A stretch of 64,000 bases of DNA from Ulva prolifera (Eukaryota > Chlorophyta > Ulvophyceae > Ulvales > Ulvaceae), in assembly GCA_023078555.1 (NCBI GenBank), contig CM041199.1:6701315-6765314 (forward strand), in the 5' to 3' direction. Below, piece by piece: positions 112-13,134 of the stretch. Under the pieces are notes generated by a model. It was not told the DNA's origin. It searched no databases and saw nothing but the letters and a program-made list of their open reading frames with translations. The first letter of the stretch is position 1. Every line of letters starts with the position of its first letter. A program made the translations under genes and the position numbers.

Positions 112-3100
112 ATGCTGGGGTTTCTTTGCTCAGTGCGTGCGTGGTACGTCGTGGTTGGCATCCTGTTGTCGCAAAGCTTAAGCTTCAGCAGCAGCGCGCC
201 GTTAGCATACGGACAGGTATGGCACATACAGCCGATCATTCTACATCAACGTTCTTGCTGCATGCCTTTTTAGTATGCTCACACCTACATCGCTGTCCTG
301 TTGACGCATGCGCACTCGGTGTCCTTGAGCCTCTCCCGCCTGCCACCTTGCTTGCGGCACACCCAACAAACGCTTCAGACATTTGTTTGATAAGCAGGAA
401 TATGATGCTGACGACATATTTCTTCCATCCCGCCGACTGTTGCAGAGCGCTGGGCCTCGGGCCGAAGCAGCAGCGTCGGTCACTGTCGTCACAACAGCCA
501 GGCAGCTGCAAGCCGCAGCCCAGGCTCGGGCGCAAGACATAGAGGTCAGAAGCCATCTAGAGCTGTCAGCACTTCCCCTGGCAACTGCAATCAATGGGTC
601 CTATAATCCCACGGCCATCGGTGCTATCATCGCCACCCGCAGCATTCGGGTGTGCCTTCCTGGTCATCATCACTATAACTGCGACCCAGAGCGGGCCTGC
701 AAAGGGCGTGTGCTTTCGCCAGACCTCTGAAGATGCGGTAGAAGCATCTTTGATTCCACCCCTAGATCTCCACCCCTGGATCTCCACCCCTGGATCTCTG
801 TGGCTCTGCACCCCTGGCTCTGTGTTACAAAGGAAAAAAGCCGGAGGGGCCGGTAGCACCGCCAGGACCCTGGCTCTGTGTGCATTCGCCCAACATGAGT
901 GGTGCATGGGTGGTGCTGCACATGCAGGGCAACTGCACGAGTCCGCCACCGGCCATCGCATCCTTCGGCCTCTCCGGGCCGGACTTCAAGTGGCAGTCCC
1001 CACAGTGCGTGCTCGTGTGCGACCATGATGTCCTGGTGATGTGGAGCAACACCTGGCTCGACGCCCTCTACATCCGGGCCAAGCCATCCCCGTTTTTCCT
1101 CTGGTTTGGCCTGGCAGTGGGGGAGAATGCCACGGTGTATGGAAGCCGCCTGACGCTGCAGGGCGACGGGAACTGGAACACCAGTGGTGTGATCTCCAGA
1201 GGACAGGTCTACGTACAAGGTAGAGTCCTCCGGACAGACCTGCATCGTGATATGATATCAGTACCTGATGTGTATACTATATATAGCTGCACTGGTGCCA
1301 GGCATGGCACGCCGAGTCGATTACCCCCAGCACTGTCAATTGGCTTCATAGGCTGCTGTTCAACAAGTTCGGCGTATGTGGTCCCGTTAACTCGGAGTCG
1401 TCAATGTCCAGTAGGATACGGCTCAGTAAATTTAGATTTACTTTACTTTTACAAGTTTTCAGAATCAACGTGAGGAATTGCCGATGTGGGGATCACAGTG
1501 TCATAAGGCTGGCCGGCAACCCCTCGGTGGGGCCTGCCTGCATGGCTACCCGAGCAGTTGCATGCAGCTGCAGCTGCAGCTGCAGCACTGCAGACGGCTG
1601 CAGCAAGTTATAATATAATTAATTGCAGCATCGCCTATGTTGGCAGGCCTGTATTGTGAACGGAGTCAACCTGACGCCTGGCCGCCAGAGCCATGAACAA
1701 CCAACAGACCTGTTTTGGAAACTGTTGCGTGGGTTTTAATTTCTTTGTTGCGTCTGGTGGGTTTGTGTTGGAAGTCTGTGACACTGGTGGTTGGTGACGC
1801 GCTACAGAGCCGCTGATGCAGACAGCCTGTTCCTCGACTGCGGAGGCGCGACTCAGCTCGTCGGCGCATTCAATGGCTCGATCGTGTTCAACCGGACGAC
1901 TTTCACAAACGTCGTGCAGCGGCGGTCGCCCCACGACTTCCAGCCGCAGGCGGCAGGAGGCCCAGACGCCGGCCAGTACCTGGCCAATGGCCTCTTCTCG
2001 GCAACAGGCGACAGCGCTAGTATCCTTGTACAGGTGCGCACCAGTGTTGGGTTGATTTGTAGCATTTTCAGGGCTGCCACCCAGAAATTATATCTGAATA
2101 ATCGGAATTGTTCTATGTGTGTGATCGTGCCCGACGACCCAACACTGCTAGTCAGCCACACTTGGGGCCGTGCCGATGCCATGCACTGCACGATTTCGTA
2201 TGGTGTATCTACAGCGGAAATTCCCTATTTCCAGGGGCCTGAAACTGAACTCAAGTCTGAACTCAGGATGCTGCGGCTGCATGTGCAACAGGCTCGGGCT
2301 GAGACCGTCAGTTTCAACCCCGTTGCGACGTCTATGTGGCTGAGCACGAGACATGAACCTGCCAATGCGCACGCAGGACTGTGAGTTCGACAATGTGACG
2401 GTTGATAACATGTTCTGGGTGGGCAAGGGCGGGTACATCGCTGGTGGAGGCAACACGGGAGCACCAGAGGTTGTGTACGACCTCGAGGAGCGGGCCGACG
2501 TGCCTCTCAACCGGCTTGGGCCCGTGCCGCAGGAGTTCCTGCAGCCGCTGCGGCCGGACGATGAATGGTGGCTCACCGTTCGCAAAGTGCGATCCTCTAC
2601 TTATCAACTGACTCCGCGGACGAGAACGATTGGCTTTCGAGTCGGACGAGACTCTTCTGTTTTGTTTGTCTGTTCCCGTTCACTCTTTTGTCATCACTTC
2701 ACAGACGACAGCATGTGATCATGACTTGGGCTCATTCAACTGGCACTGAGTGTGAAGGTTCAACTTGAACTTATGGTGCATGGCCCATAGACGCAGATGC
2801 GTCCGCACGGCTGGTGCTGTCAGCAGCGTGTGATTTCTTGCTCCTGGCTGCATTTGCTGTGCAAGCCAGGTGGATGCCAGGGACTGACGTGAACGACGGT
2901 GCATTTTGCACATACTGAGGGTGCACTGCAGAGGCTGAGTGAGGCGAACGCTAGCAGCTACACACCTGAGGCTGAGCCCCCGGCACTAGTGCAGCCGCCG
3001 CCGCCAGTGAACGGCACGGACCCGCCGCAGATCGCGGCTGTGTACACTGTGGAGGACTTCCAGCGGGCCTTCCACGCCGGCATCCGCGACATCGAGCTCC

Positions 3101-6100
3101 GCGACCACATGGACTTGAGGCGGGCGGTGATGGCGACCACAAGATTCCAGGGCTTCCAGATGTCGGCTCCCCTCGGCGGCGTGCGCAACGCGACCCGCTC
3201 CATCCGGGTGCGGACCCCAGGCAGTGCCCTGGCGTTGTATGTACCGTGATGCCCAGCCGATTTGTTGCGGCCGTCCGAGGTATTGTGGTCGTGTCTCACA
3301 GCGGGTCTCCAGATACTCTGACACAGAGCGCTTCAGACATCATGAGGCCGGGGAGGCTGCTGTGCTTGGGGCTCCTGATGCAGCAGTGGTGAGTGTATGC
3401 ACCCTGTGTGGCAGCACTGGCGGTTCCGCAATTGCAGATGAGGCATCCTGGGTGTGTGCAGACTCCCAGCCTCCAGCCTCAGGTCGTCTTCCACTGCCCG
3501 CCTCGGCGGCACCTCGCACGCAATAGGAACTTGCTGGTGCCGCTCATAGACACACAACCGCATCGACAGCAGATGTGCTGCACCCGCATGAATCATCCTG
3601 GAATGTGCGCGGCTCCATTGCCGCAGTAGATCCCATCACCAATACACATCTTCTTTGATATTACAAATAGCACATTTTATTTGGTTCATAATGAATACAG
3701 TCAATGATACAAAAGGGACAGTAGAAGTATTGTAAGAGCTCACATATGACAGACAGAAGAGCGTGTGTTGCGGATTGCACTCCACTCTCCGGCTCACGCC
3801 TTGTGCACTCCACTCTCCGGCTCACGCCTTGTGCACTCCACTCTCCGGCTCACGCCTTGTGCACTCCACTCTCCGGCTCACGCCTTGTGCACTCCACTCT
3901 CCGGCTCACGCCTTGTGTGTCCCACATGCAGGGCAACTGCACCACGGCGCCGCCGCCGGAGCTGGACCCGTGGGCGGTGGCCAAGGCGGACTCACCGGAG
4001 CCCTGGGCGGCCCCCCGCTGCGCCCTGCTCGTCAGACACCGCACGTTCCTCCTGGATGATGCGCACCTCTGGGTCGACTCCCTGCACATCCAGGTCGACA
4101 ACTCGACGGACGACTTCCAGTTCGTGTTCTGGACGTCGTGGTCCTCAGCTCTGTTTCTGACCAACTCTGTTGTGCAAGGCGATGGAAGAGAGGGCACTGT
4201 GGCACTGGAGGTGCAGGGGTCCCGCCTCGGCGCATACATCCGTGGTGCGCCAGCCGCCCTGCCTGCACTGTGCGCTGTCTACCAGTGTGGGTGGGGTCGC
4301 ATTGCGCTTTTTCAGGGCTGCCACCCAGCAATTAGAGCTGATATTACTAATATTCGAAACTGTTAAATGTGATCCTGCCCGACGTCCAGACAGAGCTGTC
4401 TACATCTTGCAGGTATGGTGCCGCATGCTGTGGGCGGTGCTCTGTGAGTTGGTTTAGGCTGCGATTTGTCAGGGGGTTAACCCCGAAATCCGGTCCAGAT
4501 ATACGCAATTGTGCTTGATGTGATTGGTCGATGTGATTCCGCACGAGGACGCAACGCTGGGGTGCAGGGACAGTATTTGACTCTGTGACGGGCATAGATC
4601 CGGACACGTTTCCATCTGCAATCAAGGCTTACTTCTCGCCGATCTTCTTCGAGTCGTGCACATTCCGGGCGCTGGCAGTGCCGAGCAGGGGGTCACCCCT
4701 GGAAGCGGGAGAATTTGTGTACGGAGCTATCCACGCCCACGGGCTGAATGCGTCCCTGGCGTTTCAGAACTGCAGCTTTGCCGACATCCGCTCTGAGCAT
4801 CTCATCAGCGCAAGAGGCGGCTCTGCGGTGTACAGTGACAACCCCGCTCACACGGTGCGCATCCAGCCCGCAAGTCTCTCTGAAGAGGTTTCCCGCAACC
4901 TTTGCGCCAGGCACATCATGAAGGCTGCCGAGGCATTCTCGAACACTCGTATGCGTGTACAAGCCTAAGATGGTGATTGTGACTATGACACCGGGATGGT
5001 CTGACTTACATAATGTATGTCATCGGACGCAGGTCGCCCCCTGTTGCCACTGGCGATGTAGATGTGATGTGCAGGGCGTATGGTCGTACTTGCGGGACCC
5101 GTTCGCGCCTCAGCCACTGACCACGGTCGTGAGCCGCACTCAGCGCCAGGGGCCGTTCCTCACCTACACAGACCCGTGGTTCACTGCGCTGCAGGAGGTG
5201 CGTGCTGGTAGTTCTCACTGCGACCAACCCATGGTTCACTGCGCTGCAGGAGGCGTGTGCCCGCACTCTTGATCCAACAGCGCAGCGATGATATCGATGT
5301 TGCTTCATTTCCGCATGTTGTTGCTTCCTGGCTCTTGGGCTGGCTCTCGGGCTCGCCTGCACTGCGCTGCACAGACTTTCACATGGCGCTATCCGTAGAG
5401 TTTACAAAAGAGTGAAGGGGGCGCTATGCGTTGTTTTTCCGTTGTTTGATACGCCACAGTGATAGACTCGAAGAATTGATGTTGTTCGGGGTGAGCTTGA
5501 GAAGGACGCTGCGCGAGCGTGTCGATGTCCGCCTCCTTGATGTCTGCCTACCTGACGTCTGGCTAGTCTGTGCGCATTCATGTCCCGAAGTGTTGCAAGT
5601 GGCCTCAGGCACCTCAGCGGCGGGTCAGGTGACAAGGCCATGTACAGTTGTGAACATATTTTTGGATCTGAGGCGAACAAGGGGTCTGAGGCAGTTGGTG
5701 CCTCGACGGGCCGTCACATATATATGACATATATGTGACGCCAGTACATGGAAGCGCCCGTTCTTGCATGCCATCCCAGCGCGAGCCGACCTCACCTGTC
5801 ATCCCGCAGTTGCCACGCTTGATGTCCTGAAGGCTGCACGCAGCAGCGCATGCATTTGAATGCTGACACTGAAGCATGAGAGACCTTGAACACCCATGCT
5901 GTGGCCCCACGCAGACGCTGGCAGCACCGCCGCCTTCCGCGTACCTCCGCACGTTCCCCATCCCGGGGGCCGCGCAGCCACCATCGGCACCACCTCCGGA
6001 GCCCTCCACCGGCGTCGCCTTGGGCCCCGGAGCCCCCCTCTCCGACGCCACATATTTATCCAGCAGCGATGGAGAGGGCACTGCGACCGGCACGGGCGAC

Positions 6101-9100
6101 GATTTCGTTGAGGTCGAAGCAGAAGGTGTCGGCAGCAGTGGCGGCATGGGCGCAGGCGCGATCATCGGCATCGTGGCTGCGGCGGTGGTCGCGGTGGTGG
6201 CGCTGCTGACGCTGCTGCTGATTGGCGTGCGTGTCAAGAAACGGCGACGCAGTGACGGGGGAGCGCCTCCAGCCGCCACGGTACTGCTTCGGCGTCTCTC
6301 ATCACACTGCACATGTTCCTGTGTTGAGCTCATCTCATCTGCTCCTTCCCACACACCCCCCCCACCCGCGCCTGCCACCACACTAGCTCTGATTTCACTG
6401 AAGCTCCATTCCCCGTCCTTGCTGCCTCGGCATGAACCCCCCCTCCCCTGATGTTCCACAGCTGGGAGTGTCCTGCTCGTACGCTGATGGTATCTGCTGA
6501 GCTGCGCTCATCCCTGTGGCAGGGACATGCGCATTCGATCCTTACGAGCAGTAAGGAAGCGCCCGATGCACATTGACTTGCTGTTCCGCGCTGTCGCTGT
6601 CATTGATTTCTTCCAAGGAAGTCCATGATCGCGGGGGTCGATGTATGCGACGATGGACTGCCCCCCGCGCAGCTGGACGCGCTGTGCGGAGGATACATGC
6701 TCTTGTAGGACCGGGCCGCATGTGCATTCATCACAACAGCCATCAATATAAAGGTTGCAGGAGCACTTGCATTGCAAACAGGGCACTGTGAAAATCTCTG
6801 GTCCGACGTGGTGCCAACAGCACCCCCTCCCCGGCTGATACTGCAGGCCGCATCCCCTACCATCGGCACAGCAGCTGCAGCCCATGGCGACGAGCTGTTC
6901 CTGCCAGTGCCGGCGCAGATGGGGTTTGCAAGCAATTGTCCACGCTTGCGCCCTCCCGACTACGCTAAGGGGCCCCATGGGTATCCGATGCATGGGCCAC
7001 ATGCGTGCGCCGCGGCAGCGCAGCCGCCCAGCTCCGGCGGCGGAAGCAGCACCGCCTCTGCTGCGGCGCCGCGGCCACAGCCGTCACTGACCGCCAGGAC
7101 CGCATCGACGACCGTCACAGCATTCACCCGGTCCACATGGGCGGATTATCGGAAGTGCGTTGCCTGCCTCCATCTTTGAGCACTCCCGGAAGTGCTCTGC
7201 ATGGTGGCGCTTTCCCCTTGCACAATGTTCCATGTTTTCTTTCGTGTGCCCCGTCATGGCGGGCACGCTCAATAGTCTCACTCTCCAACCCAGCGCTCAT
7301 ATGAAAAGTGTACTTGTGCGCCATGGATCACATCGGCGCATCTCTGTGTATCAGATCGTCATGGGGCTGGTGCGCTGCAGGGCTGCAGGGGGGGCGGCCA
7401 CGGCCTTGGACCAGCTGGAGGTGGCGCTGGACGCGATGTGCGGCATGCAGGCTCCGTTCTACGGCCGCTACCTCATCCTCTCTGCCATCGAACGCCGCCC
7501 AGGAGGCCAGGGCGTTGTGCAGTTTGCCAGCATCTCCGGCGCTGGTGCCAGCCAGGAACAGGTGTGTCCCCACGCCTCTGCCCAGCCGCCTCGCCCCTGA
7601 TCTGCACCTTGTGATTCCGCAGGAAACGGGTAAATCAGGTCCGGAAATTTGGGGGGTGTCGTCTTCGCTGATGATCACAGAGTGCACGTGGCGGATGCCT
7701 GCTTTTTCAATTGTAGATGCGCATTGTGGCCCTACGATTGGACAGAACACTAATGACCACTTCATCTAAGTGCGTGGCACTGCAGGAAAATCTAGGTGTG
7801 AGATGCTTCTTGAGATACTTCTTCTTGTGATACTATGAACTGCTCGACATCCCTCTCTTGCCCACCTGGGGGACCCGTGTGTGCGTGTTAAGTAATGTCA
7901 AGTAAAAGTAAACCTGAACTGTGTTTGAGGCCAACCACTCTTCCGTAGTGCGCTGCCTCTCGTCAAGTGTACATGCTTGCCCCACGTCCACGGACTCTTC
8001 TGTATCATCGACCGTGATAGGTGTGCCTTCAGGCTGCGATCAAGTTCTACTTGCACCGGGCGGCCTTCAGGCGGGAGCGGGAGCTGTACACCGAGTCGCA
8101 GCTCAAGGCGATGATGCCTGCCACCCTCGCAGTTGAGGAGAACGCCGCTGGCAAGCATCGCACGCCGTACGGCTACGTGTTCCCGCCATTTGTCATCATC
8201 GAGCGAGGCCAGAGCCTCGACGAGTGGGCTAAAGACAACAGGGATAGTGACTTTGTCACCATCTACCAGGTGTGCATGGCAAGTTCAGGGTTACATTTCG
8301 TCTCCAATCCTATTCTGCACGGATATTGAAGCCATCCATCGTTTGCAAGACATTCTATTCGAATATGATCAGTTCATGGCCGCTGCAGCAACCCTTGAAT
8401 CCATTGGGTAGGCCCCGGCCCTCCTGGGTACTCATGCTGCAACTGTGCGGCTTCCGATCACATCACAAACTGATGAACCTAGGCAGCTGTAGTGGGGTTC
8501 GATGTAGACAGCAGTGTCGGGTCATCGAGCCCGATCACGAAGAACAATTCCGAATATCTGGGTCTATTTTTTGGGTGGCAGCCCTGACAATGCTGCAAAT
8601 CGACCCGAAACTGGTAGACAGAATGGTGCAGGCGCTGAGCCACGCAGTACGGGCGCTCGCCAAGCTGCACAGCTTTGGGTACGCCCACCGGGACATCAAA
8701 CCCGACAACATCCTCCGCCGTCCCAAGAGGCACGACTGGACGCTCATCGACTTTGGCTGTGCCGCTAAGATTGGTGCGCGCCCCGCACACTCCCCCCGTG
8801 TCATGATCAGAGGCCCCTCACCATGCACTCCTCTTGTGTGTGCTGCGCCGCGTGATAACGCGGCCCGTGATGCGCAGTGCGGAGGTGTCATGGCGCCGGG
8901 GAGTGTGCATGGCCATATGACGTGCGTCACTTTTGCATTGAGCCGCGCTACATATGGCACGCACGCTCATGGCTCGAGGTCCATGCATGCTTTGAGTACA
9001 CTGTGGCCATGGGGCAGGGCAAACCCCACTTGGCCCGTTAACGGTTCTGGGAGAACATGATGGAATGAGGACTTCCCAGGGGCCTCGGCCTGTGCTGCGT

Positions 9101-9661
9101 TGCTTGCCATGCATGTACATGAGCTGAAGCCCGCATCGTGTCGGTGGAGAAGAGTCAGTGCGCGGGTGTGGCTACCGGTGCCACACGAATGAGAATTGTG
9201 CGGCACCTGGACGCAAGCAGTAAACCTGTGCAGGCTCAACCGCCAGCCTGAGCTTCTCCCTGAAATATGCCGCCCCGGAGGTGATTCGCGCTCTCGAGGC
9301 CGGCGCCCGCACAATCGTCTCTCACGCGGCCGTCGACATCTGGGCGGTCGGCGTCATCGCCTTTGAGCTCCTCACCGGCGAGCGCGCTTTCCCGGTGCAC
9401 GGCCTAAGTGCAGAGCAGTCCGATGCGGCGGCGCAGGAGGCGATTGCCGGGCGGACGTCGCTGCCGTGGGAGGGCAGCGGCGAGGCGACAAGCGAGCGGC
9501 TGGGGAAGCTGCGGGTGATGCGGCGGACGGTGTTGCGGTGCTTGGAGCGCGACCCCGCCGCCCGCCCGACGGCGGAGGCGCTGCTGCGGTCGTGGGACCA
9601 CACCTTTGACGACATGCACACCCGGGGCACCAACTGGAGCGCATCTGCAGCGTCCGGGTGA
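112..9661 (+). CDS. Receptor-like kinase with beta-helix-like ectodomain, copy 1
   Basis: Fifteen exons with consistent phases: 112-216, 398-649, 928-1219, 1822-2033, 2377-2586, 2932-3207, 3932-4244, 4568-4854, 5075-5197, 5915-6280, 6847-7154, 7381-7561, 8033-8269, 8632-8773, 9234-9661; about 1,243 residues. Exon 1 gives a signal peptide (hydrophobic around residues 12-25). Residues 36-690 are extracellular, with many N-glycosylation sites and rung-like motifs such as NCSF and CTF typical of pectin-lyase-like beta-helices. A Pro/Ser stalk leads to a membrane span at about 771-794, then KKRRR. The kinase (about 900-1243) shows a Gly-rich loop, AAIK (K979), HRDIKPDN (D1075), DFG (1094-1096), APE and DIWAVGV, so it looks active; Ser/Thr type is inferred from DIKPDN. 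The start was chosen because the paralogue has a matching signal exon. Ligand and pathway are unknown; a cell-wall or glycan ligand is only inferred from the fold. Confidence 0.85.
773..815 (+). repeat. Short tandem repeat, unit about 14 bp
   Basis: About three copies of CCACCCCTGGATCT in intron 2 of kinase copy 1, directly before a TTACAAAGG-type dispersed repeat. No coding role is evident. Confidence 0.7.
823..864 (+). repeat. Dispersed repeat, TTACAAAGG family, copy 1
   Basis: About 42 bp beginning TGTTACAAAGG and ending TAGCACCGCCA. It recurs almost unchanged at 10635-10675 and in degraded form near 43677. It lies in intron 2 of kinase copy 1. Its first bases resemble the ends of the 11.5-13.1 kb element, so the families may be related. 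Confidence 0.65.
1395..1465. repeat. Short repeat in intron 3, inverted relative to the paralogue
   Basis: A block of about 45 bp containing AAATTTAGATTTACTTTAC is the reverse complement of a block at 14712-14763, which lies in the same intron (intron 3) of kinase copy 2. A related fragment occurs near 7890. Confidence 0.6.
2042..2147 (+). mobile_element. MITE-like element, GTTGGGTCG family, copy A
   Basis: 106 bp with 13-bp imperfect terminal inverted repeats (CAGTGTTGGGTTG and CGACCCAACACTG). The shared core reads CAGGGCTGCCACCCAGAAAT, later AATTGTTCTATGTG. It has no coding capacity. It lies in intron 4 of kinase copy 1, immediately after the exon. It is interpreted as a non-autonomous DNA transposon. 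Confidence 0.7.
2641..2693 (-). repeat. Partial copy of the 11.5-kb element terminal repeat
   Basis: The reverse complement starts GACAAAAGAGTGAACGGGA, matching the outer end of the inverted repeat at 11528 and diverging after about 50 bp. It lies in intron 5 of kinase copy 1. Confidence 0.55.
3778..3917 (+). repeat. Tandem repeat, five perfect 28-bp units
   Basis: Five identical copies of a 28-bp unit beginning CACTCCACTCTCCGGCTCAC. The array ends 14 bp before exon 7 of kinase copy 1, so it fills the branch-point and polypyrimidine region of intron 6. Perfect identity suggests recent expansion. The matching intron of copy 2 lacks it. Confidence 0.95.
8512..8613 (-). mobile_element. MITE-like element, GTTGGGTCG family, copy B
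   Basis: 102 bp, inverted relative to copy A, with ends CAGTGTCGGGTC and GACCCGAAACTG and the reverse of the shared core. It lies in intron 13 of kinase copy 1 and ends about 18 bp before exon 14. Confidence 0.65.
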
Positions 9662-10921: not shown

Positions 10922-11527
10922 GGAGAGAGGAAAGTACATATGGATATACTTTGGCATCTGTTCCTTGACAAGCGATTAATTGTGTCCAGGAAAATTGACA
11001 TTTTGTTATGTCATCCATGCGACTTCGAATTCGGCTCGGCTTGAAACCAGATGATCTTGATGCAGAGTGGTTTCGAATTCATGTCTAGATCTTGGCTGCG
11101 ACGTTTCGCGAGTCGGCAGTCAGAGTGGATGACCCCCTCGTCAGCGCGATACGCACTCAAACCAGCACTGTTGTAACCTATACGAGTCGTATAATACGAC
11201 CCAATTGGTACGCGTGCTGTCAATTCGGAGCGGGCTCGGCATCTCTGTTGTCGGCCATTTCAAGCTCCGCGGGCTTGTCAATGTCTACAGTAGCCACATG
11301 TGCACCAGCCAATTGTCTGGCTACGCCGTTCAAGAGCTCTCGTGATTATAGCTAGCGACTCGGAAGCCCGGGCCAGGTAGCCTGCCTTTCTTGTGGCGTC
11401 TCGTGTGTTCTGCTGTCCGCAGGACCATGACAATAATATTAATGCTGATCACTCTGGAGGCTATGCATTGATCCTCAGCAGAGGCGAGCGAGTGAGGCAC
11501 GTATGTGTTTTTGTCCCGGGACAAAGG

Positions 11528-13134
11528 GTTACAAAAGAGTGAACGGGAGAAAACAAACACTGAAACCGAATCTCATCCGAATCAACTGCAACATACACTC
11601 ACACACACACGAACACCACAACCGCATTCACAACTCAGTCCGGGACAAAGGGCCCTCGCTCGCGATAAGTGGGTGGATGAACTTTCTTTTTGCTGTGTGC
11701 GCATGACGCACCTGATGCGGACGGTGCCGTATGCCGTGCTCGAGCCGCACATGCGCAGGGCGGAGGCCGCTGTGTGGCGCGGTGCCGCCGCAATCCTGTG
11801 CCTGCCGCCGGAGGTTGCGGAGGCTGCTGCCGCGTCTGACAACTCGGCCACTGACGCTGAGACGCGGCGGCTTGCTTACCGGCTGATGTCCCCTGTCAGG
11901 CATGGCGGGCTCGGACTGACGATGCTGGTGGACAGCGTCGCTGACGCGGCTTTCCTGTCGGGGGCCGGCACGGCCGAGCGCAACCTCGCCGGCTGCCCGG
12001 ACCTGCTCCGCCCCCTCCGCGGCCACAGCCGGGGCAGTCTGTTGCAGCGCTGGCAGGGCTTGTTCGACGAGCTGCATGAGCTGCTGGGGTGGGAGGCGGA
12101 TGCCCGCGACCTGCCGGACGAGTTCGTCTCGGGCAAGCTGCTAGCGTTCCAGCACGAGGTGGGGCGCGCGGTCGCGGACCATGCGGCCTCACTCGTGCTA
12201 CAGGGCATCGACCTCGACACGCCGGCCGGCAGGCGGGAAGCGGCGTGGCTTAGGAGCGCTTCGGGGGGGCCTGCAGGCGCCTTCCTCTCCGCTCTGCCGG
12301 GCGGCGTTCTCACCATGGGCGACGACATGTTTGTCCTGGCGGTGTGGCACCGCCTGCGATTCCGCGTCCCGACGGACGTCCCCCCCCCTCCGTGCAAATG
12401 CAGTGCAGGTTTTGCCGCCGAACCAGACCACGCCATGGTCTACAAGAAGGTGGCAAAGGAGACCCAGATGCGCCATGATAACCTGGCTCGTGCCTTGCGC
12501 CTGGTCGCCTCTTACGCCGGACTGCAGTCTGCCCTGGAGCCGCTCTACCGTGCCCTCGCGAGGGGCGCGGGTGTTGAGCTGAATCGCCGCGGGGACGTCG
12601 TCGTGGTCATGCCGCGCCTGGAGATGGCGGCCGTGGACGTCGTGGTCACGCATGCGCCGGCGGCCTCATACGTGGCCGCTGCGGCGCGGGAGACGGGTGC
12701 GACGGCGGAGCGGGCGGAGGACAGGAAGCGGGACCGCTTCCGGCGGGACATGCCTGACCATGCCGCGTTCCGGTTTGTTCCGTTTGCGGTCGAATCGTGT
12801 GGCTTCATGGGCAAGGCTGCCGTGAGGTTCGTCGGTCAGTTGGGGGATGTGGCCGCTGCCAGTGGGCGCATCTCCAAAGGCGCGTTTGTCCAGTGGGCGC
12901 TGCGGGTGTTGTCGGTGTCATTGCAGCGCGGCAATGCGGATATGTATCGGAAGTCTGGGCTTGTCATCTCTCGGGAGCAAGGGTTGCGGTATGATGCGGG
13001 TCTGGAGGACGCGATCCTGCCGGACTGAGTTGTGAGTGCGGTTGTAGTGTTCGTGTGTGTGTGAGTGTATGTTGCAGTTGATTCGGATGAGATTCGGTTT
13101 CAGTGTTTGCTTTCTCCCGTTCACTCTTTTGTAA
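11528..13134. mobile_element. Composite element with 115-bp inverted repeats around a retrotransposon-derived ORF
   Basis: Left repeat 11528-11643 and right repeat 13020-13134 are reverse complements with about four mismatches. Between them lies one long ORF (11703-13028) whose stop codon falls inside the right repeat. The outer ends read TTACAAAAGAGTGAACGGGAG. The left repeat is bracketed by a direct repeat GTCC(C)GGGACAAAGGG (11513-11528 and 11638-11652). I see no clear target duplication around the whole unit. The inverted ends suggest DNA-transposon-like or recombination-generated structure, although the ORF is LINE-related. Confidence 0.75.
11703..13028 (+). CDS. Non-LTR retrotransposon protein, C-terminal part (RT thumb region plus Zn-knuckle/nuclease-like region)
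   Basis: 441 residues if the ATG at 11703 is used; the frame is open upstream. The N-terminal part (HLMRTVP, then PVRHGGLGL) resembles the region after the palm in reverse transcriptases of algal, plant and oomycete LINEs. The later CKC, DHAM, RHDNLARAL, RRGDVVVV, DVVVTHAP and FVPFAVESCG segments resemble the restriction-like endonuclease tail of such proteins. No RT palm (YxDD) is present, so this is a 5'-truncated or domesticated piece. Yet it is intact for over 1.3 kb, which argues for youth or selection. The assignment comes from memory of family patterns, not a search. It starts well within the element and ends in its right inverted repeat. Confidence 0.6.
   Translation: MTHLMRTVPYAVLEPHMRRAEAAVWRGAAAILCLPPEVAEAAAASDNSATDAETRRLAYRLMSPVRHGGLGLTMLVDSVADAAFLSGAGTAERNLAGCPDLLRPLRGHSRGSLLQRWQGLFDELHELLGWEADARDLPDEFVSGKLLAFQHEVGRAVADHAASLVLQGIDLDTPAGRREAAWLRSASGGPAGAFLSALPGGVLTMGDDMFVLAVWHRLRFRVPTDVPPPPCKCSAGFAAEPDHAMVYKKVAKETQMRHDNLARALRLVASYAGLQSALEPLYRALARGAGVELNRRGDVVVVMPRLEMAAVDVVVTHAPAASYVAAAARETGATAERAEDRKRDRFRRDMPDHAAFRFVPFAVESCGFMGKAAVRFVGQLGDVAAASGRISKGAFVQWALRVLSVSLQRGNADMYRKSGLVISREQGLRYDAGLEDAILPD

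Follow-up and report, generated by a model that had tools for sequence, protein, structure and literature searches.

A stretch of 64,000 nucleotides from the green alga Ulva prolifera (GCA_023078555.1, contig CM041199.1, positions 6,701,315 to 6,765,314 of the forward strand), here called the window, carries near its start a gene whose predicted product is a type I single-pass receptor kinase. The gene belongs to a tandem array and to a large family of related loci, and its ectodomain is built from two homologous modules. Gene and family are real and well supported, and a beta-helix ectodomain is plausible. The best explanation as a whole, that of a receptor whose beta-helix modules form part of a ligand recognition repertoire, is given a probability of about 0.5. 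Between positions 112 and 9661 of the forward strand, 15 exons splice to 1247 codons followed by TGA, without internal stops, in the arrangement below (basis of each assignment in parentheses).

Exon 1, 112-216, forward strand: start codon and signal-peptide-like sequence, residues 1-35 (frame, hydropathy).
Exons 2-5, 398-649, 928-1219, 1810-2033 and 2377-2586, forward strand: module M1, residues 36-361, a possible beta-helix (profile comparison, trees).
Exons 6-9, 2932-3207, 3932-4244, 4568-4854 and 5075-5197, forward strand: module M2, residues 362-694, a duplicate of M1 (hhalign, E 1.2e-39).
Exon 10, 5915-6280, forward strand: residues 695-816, a stalk rich in Pro, Ser, Gly and acidic residues, the membrane span and the stop-transfer sequence RVKKRRR (hydropathy, paralogue models).
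Exon 11, 6847-7154, forward strand: low-complexity juxtamembrane segment, fast evolving (pooled ratio of nonsynonymous to synonymous substitution, dN/dS, 0.60).
Exons 12-15, 7381-7561, 8033-8269, 8632-8773 and 9234-9661, forward strand: protein kinase domain (Pfam; Lys, HRD, DFG and APE motifs).

The order of signal peptide, ectodomain, one span and kinase, as in receptor-like kinases (RLKs), was found by frame, Pfam, hydropathy and sequons. The splice sites were picked by eye as GT-AG, so that the 14/14 GT-AG introns are partly so by construction; an exon-4 acceptor placed two bases earlier was rejected, as it broke the frame. Hydropathy windows (19 residues, mean above 1.4) started at residues 1-5 (signal peptide, maximum 1.96), 765-786 (span, 3.03) and 1132-1136 (1.67, within the kinase) and nowhere else in the focal protein, which points to a single strong span at about residues 777-797, followed by RVKKRRR at 800. 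The ectodomain comprises 741 residues, ending near residue 775, and the cytoplasmic part 450. Fourteen sequons fall in the ectodomain against 3.2 expected, a count reached in 0 of 500 shuffles, and one in the cytoplasmic part against a shuffle mean of 0.6. Sequons and kinase motifs were scanned in eight of the ten array loci (P0-P4 and P6-P8; P5 and P9 were left out). The outside count exceeded the shuffle mean in all seven other paralogues scanned, clearly so in P4, P6, P7 and P8 (reached by at most 6 of 500 shuffles), more weakly in P2 (21/500) and P3 (25/500) and unconvincingly in P1 (70/500). The Pfam Pkinase model matches residues 1038-1224 (E 7.5e-25), which is the C-lobe only; the N-lobe has no Pfam match and its motifs were read by eye, a weakness of the receptor-kinase interpretation. 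Lys, HRD, DFG and APE are motifs of catalytic meaning in protein kinases, and the focal protein has AAIK (Lys 983), HRD (1077-1079), DFG (1098-1100) and APE (1119-1121). The Lys, HRD and DFG patterns are intact in all eight paralogues scanned, in keeping with the apparently active kinase of the original prediction.

Ten tandem loci extend over about 158 kb, within a 264 kb stretch that includes the window. By tblastn, exons 2 to 15 occur in the same order and on one strand in all ten, each locus being about 9.5-12.5 kb long; targeted searches were needed in P3 and P5 for exon 5 and in P5 and P6 for the exon 9 models and for exon 11, the exon 11 model of P5 being poor. The eight joined paralogue models are all free of internal stops (8/8); these models were built with GT-AG and the intron phases of the focal gene as constraints, and phase conservation is not independent evidence. 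For exon 1, hydrophobic candidates lie 5' of exon 2 in 9/9 paralogues, a count that has no chance control, and tblastn similarity was seen in P8 only. The single 15-exon gene with signal peptide, ectodomain, one span and kinase that had been predicted is confirmed by its open 1247-codon frame and by nine further loci with the same exon order.

Constraint was compared between ectodomain and kinase. Over 15 pairs of loci (P9 pairs kept in spite of frame breaks) dN/dS was 0.25-0.64 in M1/M2 and 0.16-0.31 in the kinase. Pooled by exon over five close pairs, it was lowest in exon 14 (0.11) and highest in exon 4 (0.59) and exon 11 (0.60), with kinase exons 12-15 at 0.11-0.35. P0 and P4 share 43/36% identity in M1/M2 and 74% in the kinase. 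Ectodomain and kinase are both under purifying selection; all parts are constrained, the ectodomain mostly less so than the kinase. A repertoire of diversifying ectodomains fits some of these values poorly: M1 had a lower dN/dS than the kinase in 2 of the 15 pairs, the pooled value of kinase exon 12 (0.35) is higher than those of ectodomain exons 2, 6 and 8, and positive selection was not seen, every exon pool lying below 1.

With three types of query, 13/17, 15/30 and 15/21 matches to ectodomain exons had a family kinase on the same strand no more than 12 kb downstream, where uniform placement would give about 1%. The first set consists of 17 of 57 matches, most other exons of the same genes having been dropped, and the other two sets overlap; one of the 13 linked matches lies in a copy that has no kinase of its own, the nearest being that of a neighbour. 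The remaining matches (4/17, 15/30 and 6/21) have no listed kinase downstream, and kinase-less forms or missed kinases exist among them. They are what would favour two neighbouring genes, ectodomain and kinase, wrongly joined in our model, since kinase-less forms may exist. Such an error is nevertheless extremely unlikely in view of the same order and strand in ten array loci, exon 10, which holds both stalk and span in 10/10 array models and joins the two, the congruence of the kinase tree (ten loci) with the ectodomain tree (nine loci), and the ectodomain-kinase linkage in other clusters. Because linkage is conserved, the trees are congruent and both parts are under purifying selection, ectodomain and kinase very probably form one gene, and the original prediction is borne out on this point.

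The array also contains incomplete copies. The second member within the window, not noticed previously, is the following.

P9, 13697-24777, forward strand: array member with frame breaks (two overlapping frames are matched by exon 3, and likewise by exon 5).

These doubled matches suggest that P9 is a pseudogene or contains assembly errors. Another copy (G000:C4:6666222-6670739, reverse strand) matches exons 2, 3, 4, 6, 7 and 8 and none of exons 9 or 12-15, its weak exon 10 and 11 matches overlapping other exons; it has either been truncated or encodes a receptor-like protein that has no kinase. Kinase exons 14/15, or 15 alone, with the remainder of the gene missing, lie between array members at G000:C4:6652836-6654336 (reverse strand) and G000:C4:6700394-6700809 (forward strand), the latter directly upstream of the window. 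A tandem array of divergent paralogues, including partial and frame-broken copies, would suit kin, mate or gamete recognition by polymorphic receptors for self or partner, but a dN/dS below 1 in every exon pool speaks against this, and we consider it unlikely.

Exons 2-5 and 6-9 are homologous four-exon cassettes that share a junction between TRSIR and G.C, a duplication that the earlier account of this DNA had missed. Profiles of M2 and M1 (7 versus 7 sequences, hhalign) align at the E value given above over 293 columns; the underlying alignments A1 and A2 contain seven of the ten paralogues (all but P1, P5 and P9), and in A2 the first part of P4 exon 4 was shortened manually by a run of ten residues. 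In a tree of 18 array modules and three relatives, M1 and M2 each form one clade and the two clades have matching shape, which indicates that the duplication predates the array. Most of the invariant residues are located towards the N terminus of the modules, where a conserved cap, TRSIRG.C...P[QR]C, is found. Elsewhere in the genome the ectodomain varies. One module each was seen at L037 (contig C2) and L040 (C1) within the 10 kb examined, and at least one at L043 (C5) within 2.5 kb. At L038 (C5) a PAN/Apple-like domain (4223-5143; PAN_1, E 0.0039, below the Pfam cut-off) replaces the module, and L039 has no recognisable ectodomain. No module relatives were found in the prokaryotic and viral contig collections, nor kinase relatives in the viral one, collections that are uninformative on other algae.

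A beta-helix is a plausible fold for the module, somewhat more likely than not. Its 20-sequence profile was compared by hhalign with L044, a beta-helix frame of the same genome recognised by Pfam (PF13229), and gave a score of 38.1 (P 1.1e-4, probability 56%); all of 200 shuffles scored lower (maximum 22.9), as did a kinase control (24.8). Among 457 real frames of at least 150 residues, L044 came first of the non-receptor frames, ranks 1-44 being read as receptor-module frames and L043 (rank 47) likewise. PF13229 was detected in three of seven M1 sequences, with a best E of 0.063, below Pfam significance. An AlphaFold2 model of exon 8 is all-beta with groups of three short strands, as in pectin-lyase-like proteins, at low confidence (pLDDT 55, pTM 0.48). 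Foldseek returned 14 matches to it, none significant. The best of them is the catalytic domain of Agl-KA (probability 0.60, E 0.18), which has a beta-helix fold, and further enzymes of this fold occur in the list among unrelated folds. The exon 7 model (pLDDT 48) was unusable and was not interpreted.

Several results weigh against a beta-helix. PF13229 was found in none of seven M2 sequences, Pfam gave no beta-helix match for the focal protein, L037 or L040, and the PDB held no convincing ectodomain relative (best E 0.69-1.2). Confidence in the models of exons 8 and 7 is low. Against the module profile, the frame that contains the L040 kinase reaches 36.5, close to the 38.1 of L044, and the L007 kinase frame 28.0; because L040 scores so high, the margin of L044 over shuffles overstates the case. 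The kinase-frame alignments fall in the N-terminal cap (columns 34-104) and that of L044 in the rung region, and the recurrent alignment of cap to kinase frames is probably due to chance. The self-repeat signal of the module is weak (14.8 against 9.0, 11.4 and 9.8 in three shuffles), and a genome scan with PF13229 (best 145 of 188 candidates, 127 matches) detected no receptor locus at E 0.01. No significant family or structure match was thus found, the best values being those of PF13229 and Foldseek given above. Of the beta-helix-like ectodomain originally proposed, suggestive profile scores remain, and the significant Pfam, PDB or fold match is lacking.

The part of the cap that aligns to the L040 and L007 kinase frames reads ..AELQAA..GAQDIEIRAHLDL.. 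in the module. A PF13229 match at C1:7171709-7172038, 4.3 kb upstream of a family kinase, was rejected as proof of the fold, as its frame has no TRSIRG cap; it is one such position among 81 typed, compared with 12 typed kinase positions, and may be due to chance. That frame was used only as a beta-helix yardstick for the profile comparison. A separate large cluster of beta-helix proteins is present at about 0.13-0.98 Mb of contig C2, where PF13229 matches number in the dozens and many of them fall within open frames 850-1050 residues long.

The beta-helix fold is that of pectin lyases and of several glycoside hydrolases, and the top fold match of exon 8, although not significant, is to an enzyme of this kind. 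Both points favour reading the ectodomain as an active lyase or hydrolase of polysaccharides, tethered to a kinase. Against it, no Pfam lyase or hydrolase family, and no catalytic family model of pectate lyase or polygalacturonase, matched the focal protein or 14 module sequences, and the invariant residues are concentrated in the N-terminal part of the modules. A tethered enzyme is very unlikely. The module resembles the pectin-lyase-like proteins in the rung region that aligns to L044 and in the strand groups of exon 8; it differs in staying below Pfam significance, with a kinase frame scoring nearly alike, in having no enzyme family match and in being fused to a span and a kinase.

The kinase leans, by sequence, away from the RLK/Pelle group because of three observations. 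Pkinase scores 88.2 bits and PK_Tyr_Ser-Thr (PF07714) 35.5, although the latter too passes its cut-off. None of 146 family kinase positions is within 3 kb of the 119 PF07714 matches listed, in a scan of the best 137 of 481 candidates in which exon splitting lowers such scores. Among solved structures, GSK3 and MELK come closest in sequence, aligning with part of the kinase (best 60 of 1286 matches). NCBIfam matched generic bacterial kinases only. In this score profile the focal kinase differs from plant RLK/Pelle kinases, with which the family shares the signal peptide, ectodomain, single span and cytoplasmic kinase, tandem expansion, and the practice of placing different ectodomains (here module or PAN-like) on a shared kinase. 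LRR, lectin, WAK, DUF26, LysM and malectin domains had no Pfam match in the focal protein or the 14 module sequences, nor did the ectodomain types listed in the cited part of PMC10834447. A single-span receptor kinase whose ectodomain belongs to no family recognised by Pfam is thereby supported, in line with the earlier view that no named receptor family has this architecture.

In the 88.9 Mb genome (44 contigs) two kinase queries gave at least 147 positions, or about 143 related loci, typed one per locus from the best 150 of 454 and the best 150 of 513 candidates. The reduction from 147 reflects three C23 positions that look like a copy of C7 loci, and C7 5962254 and 5965936, which may be one gene; the weakest listed kinases (30-37% identity) may be other kinases. 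A recognisable module exon lies upstream of at least 33 distinct kinase positions (counted by hand), and the module also occurs in other clusters (L037, L040 and L043). What had been put forward as the main candidate for an undescribed system is not alone, being one of ten array loci and of about 143 related loci in what is apparently an unnamed family. As to the genome itself, the chlorophyll-binding family has 38 matches, which marks the organism as photosynthetic, and RuBisCO small-subunit exons lie on contigs C1 and C9, which in the light of plastid biology suggests the green lineage. The pherophorin model PF12499 had no match in this genome and none in the control genomes, and is hence uninformative. 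A telomere repeat was not seen by eye at two contig ends.

Sequence comparison favours, as the best reading, a repertoire of surface recognition receptors. Each module would be a right-handed parallel beta-helix closed by the conserved N-terminal cap, and the pair would form an extended, rigid and glycosylated face for contact with a ligand outside the cell. Most probably this ligand would be a polysaccharide or glycoprotein, contributed by the wall, by a neighbour or by a microbe. Such ligands would be natural for a beta-helix, which is a guess. Clustering induced by the ligand may then allow the cytoplasmic kinases to phosphorylate each other and downstream targets. Tandem amplification of a conserved kinase with a faster-changing ectodomain could yield receptors of varied specificity with a common output.

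An alternative reading is a sensor of wall integrity or wall glycans, which would bind the alga's own wall polysaccharide and report strain or damage. A beta-helix, if present, often binds polysaccharide, and the Pro-rich stalk would suit such a role. WAK and CrRLK1L kinases are thought to report wall strain or damage in plants; the likeness would lie in the proposed sensing of wall or glycan by a surface kinase, and the focal protein differs in having no WAK, EGF or malectin-like domain by Pfam. Wall-integrity signalling with unidentified sensors has been described for Chlamydomonas in the cited part of PMC6704257. About 143 kinase loci and an array of divergent ectodomains exceed the apparent need of one own-wall ligand, and an own-wall sensor is rather doubtful. 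With ten array loci and about 143 related loci, the numbers speak more for a repertoire directed at microbes, partners or kin than for one sensor of the alga's own wall.

Further features of the window lie in introns or between array members. A 15-base core, AGGGCTGCCACCCAR, occurs in three focal introns at 2070-2084 (forward), 4314-4328 (forward) and 8571-8585 (reverse), and in none of 100 shuffles; the copies sit in longer stretches that are alike by eye and are probably copies of a small repeated element. Intron 6 contains a perfect 28-base tandem repeat of 5.1 copies (3776-3917). Between two array members a 510-codon open frame (11496-13028, forward strand) has no Pfam match at E 0.01 and resembles, by eye only, mobile-element debris.

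Statements on the literature refer to the cited portions of each paper. A 2024 review gives chlorophytes one to four RLKs each in its table rows, none in Ostreococcus tauri, and mentions a study in which 9 of 18 chlorophytes had RLKs (PMC10868138). Three reports count against a near absence: Chlorella variabilis has five LRR receptor kinases (PMC3268121), LRR-RLKs are expanded in green algae in a survey of 350 genomes (PMC10834447), and in Trebouxia some gene families bear the names of LRR and other receptor kinases (PMC11523091). Expanded kinase families, with 52 members in total, are reported from the lichen alga Asterochloris (PMC6652019). The LRR receptor kinases of Chlorella variabilis, oomycetes, Monosiga and Ectocarpus are likewise lineage-specific outside land plants (PMC3268121), and differ from the focal gene in their LRR ectodomain; they belong to the receptor kinase group, in which the focal kinase may or may not fall. 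The 350-genome survey defined an RLK by span and kinase, almost 70% having seven known ectodomains, so that genes like the focal one could be in its unnamed remainder. We found no description in the open-access literature of a beta-helix or pectin lyase fold joined to a kinase in algae.

Set against the few or no receptor-like kinases that the 2024 review (PMC10868138) gives chlorophytes, this genome holds about 143 related loci, at least 33 with a secreted module upstream. A tentative possibility is that a green alga built its own large receptor-kinase repertoire from non-RLK/Pelle kinase stock, using modular ectodomains of beta-helix (and PAN-like) type; it would match the land-plant RLKs by convergence and recognise external glycans, microbes or partners. 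If the family is separate from RLK/Pelle, most surface receptors of such algae would escape surveys that start from that clade or from the seven common ectodomains, and the green lineage would have evolved receptor-kinase repertoires more than once. The family provides concrete candidates for the sensing of walls, microbes or symbiotic partners in green algae.

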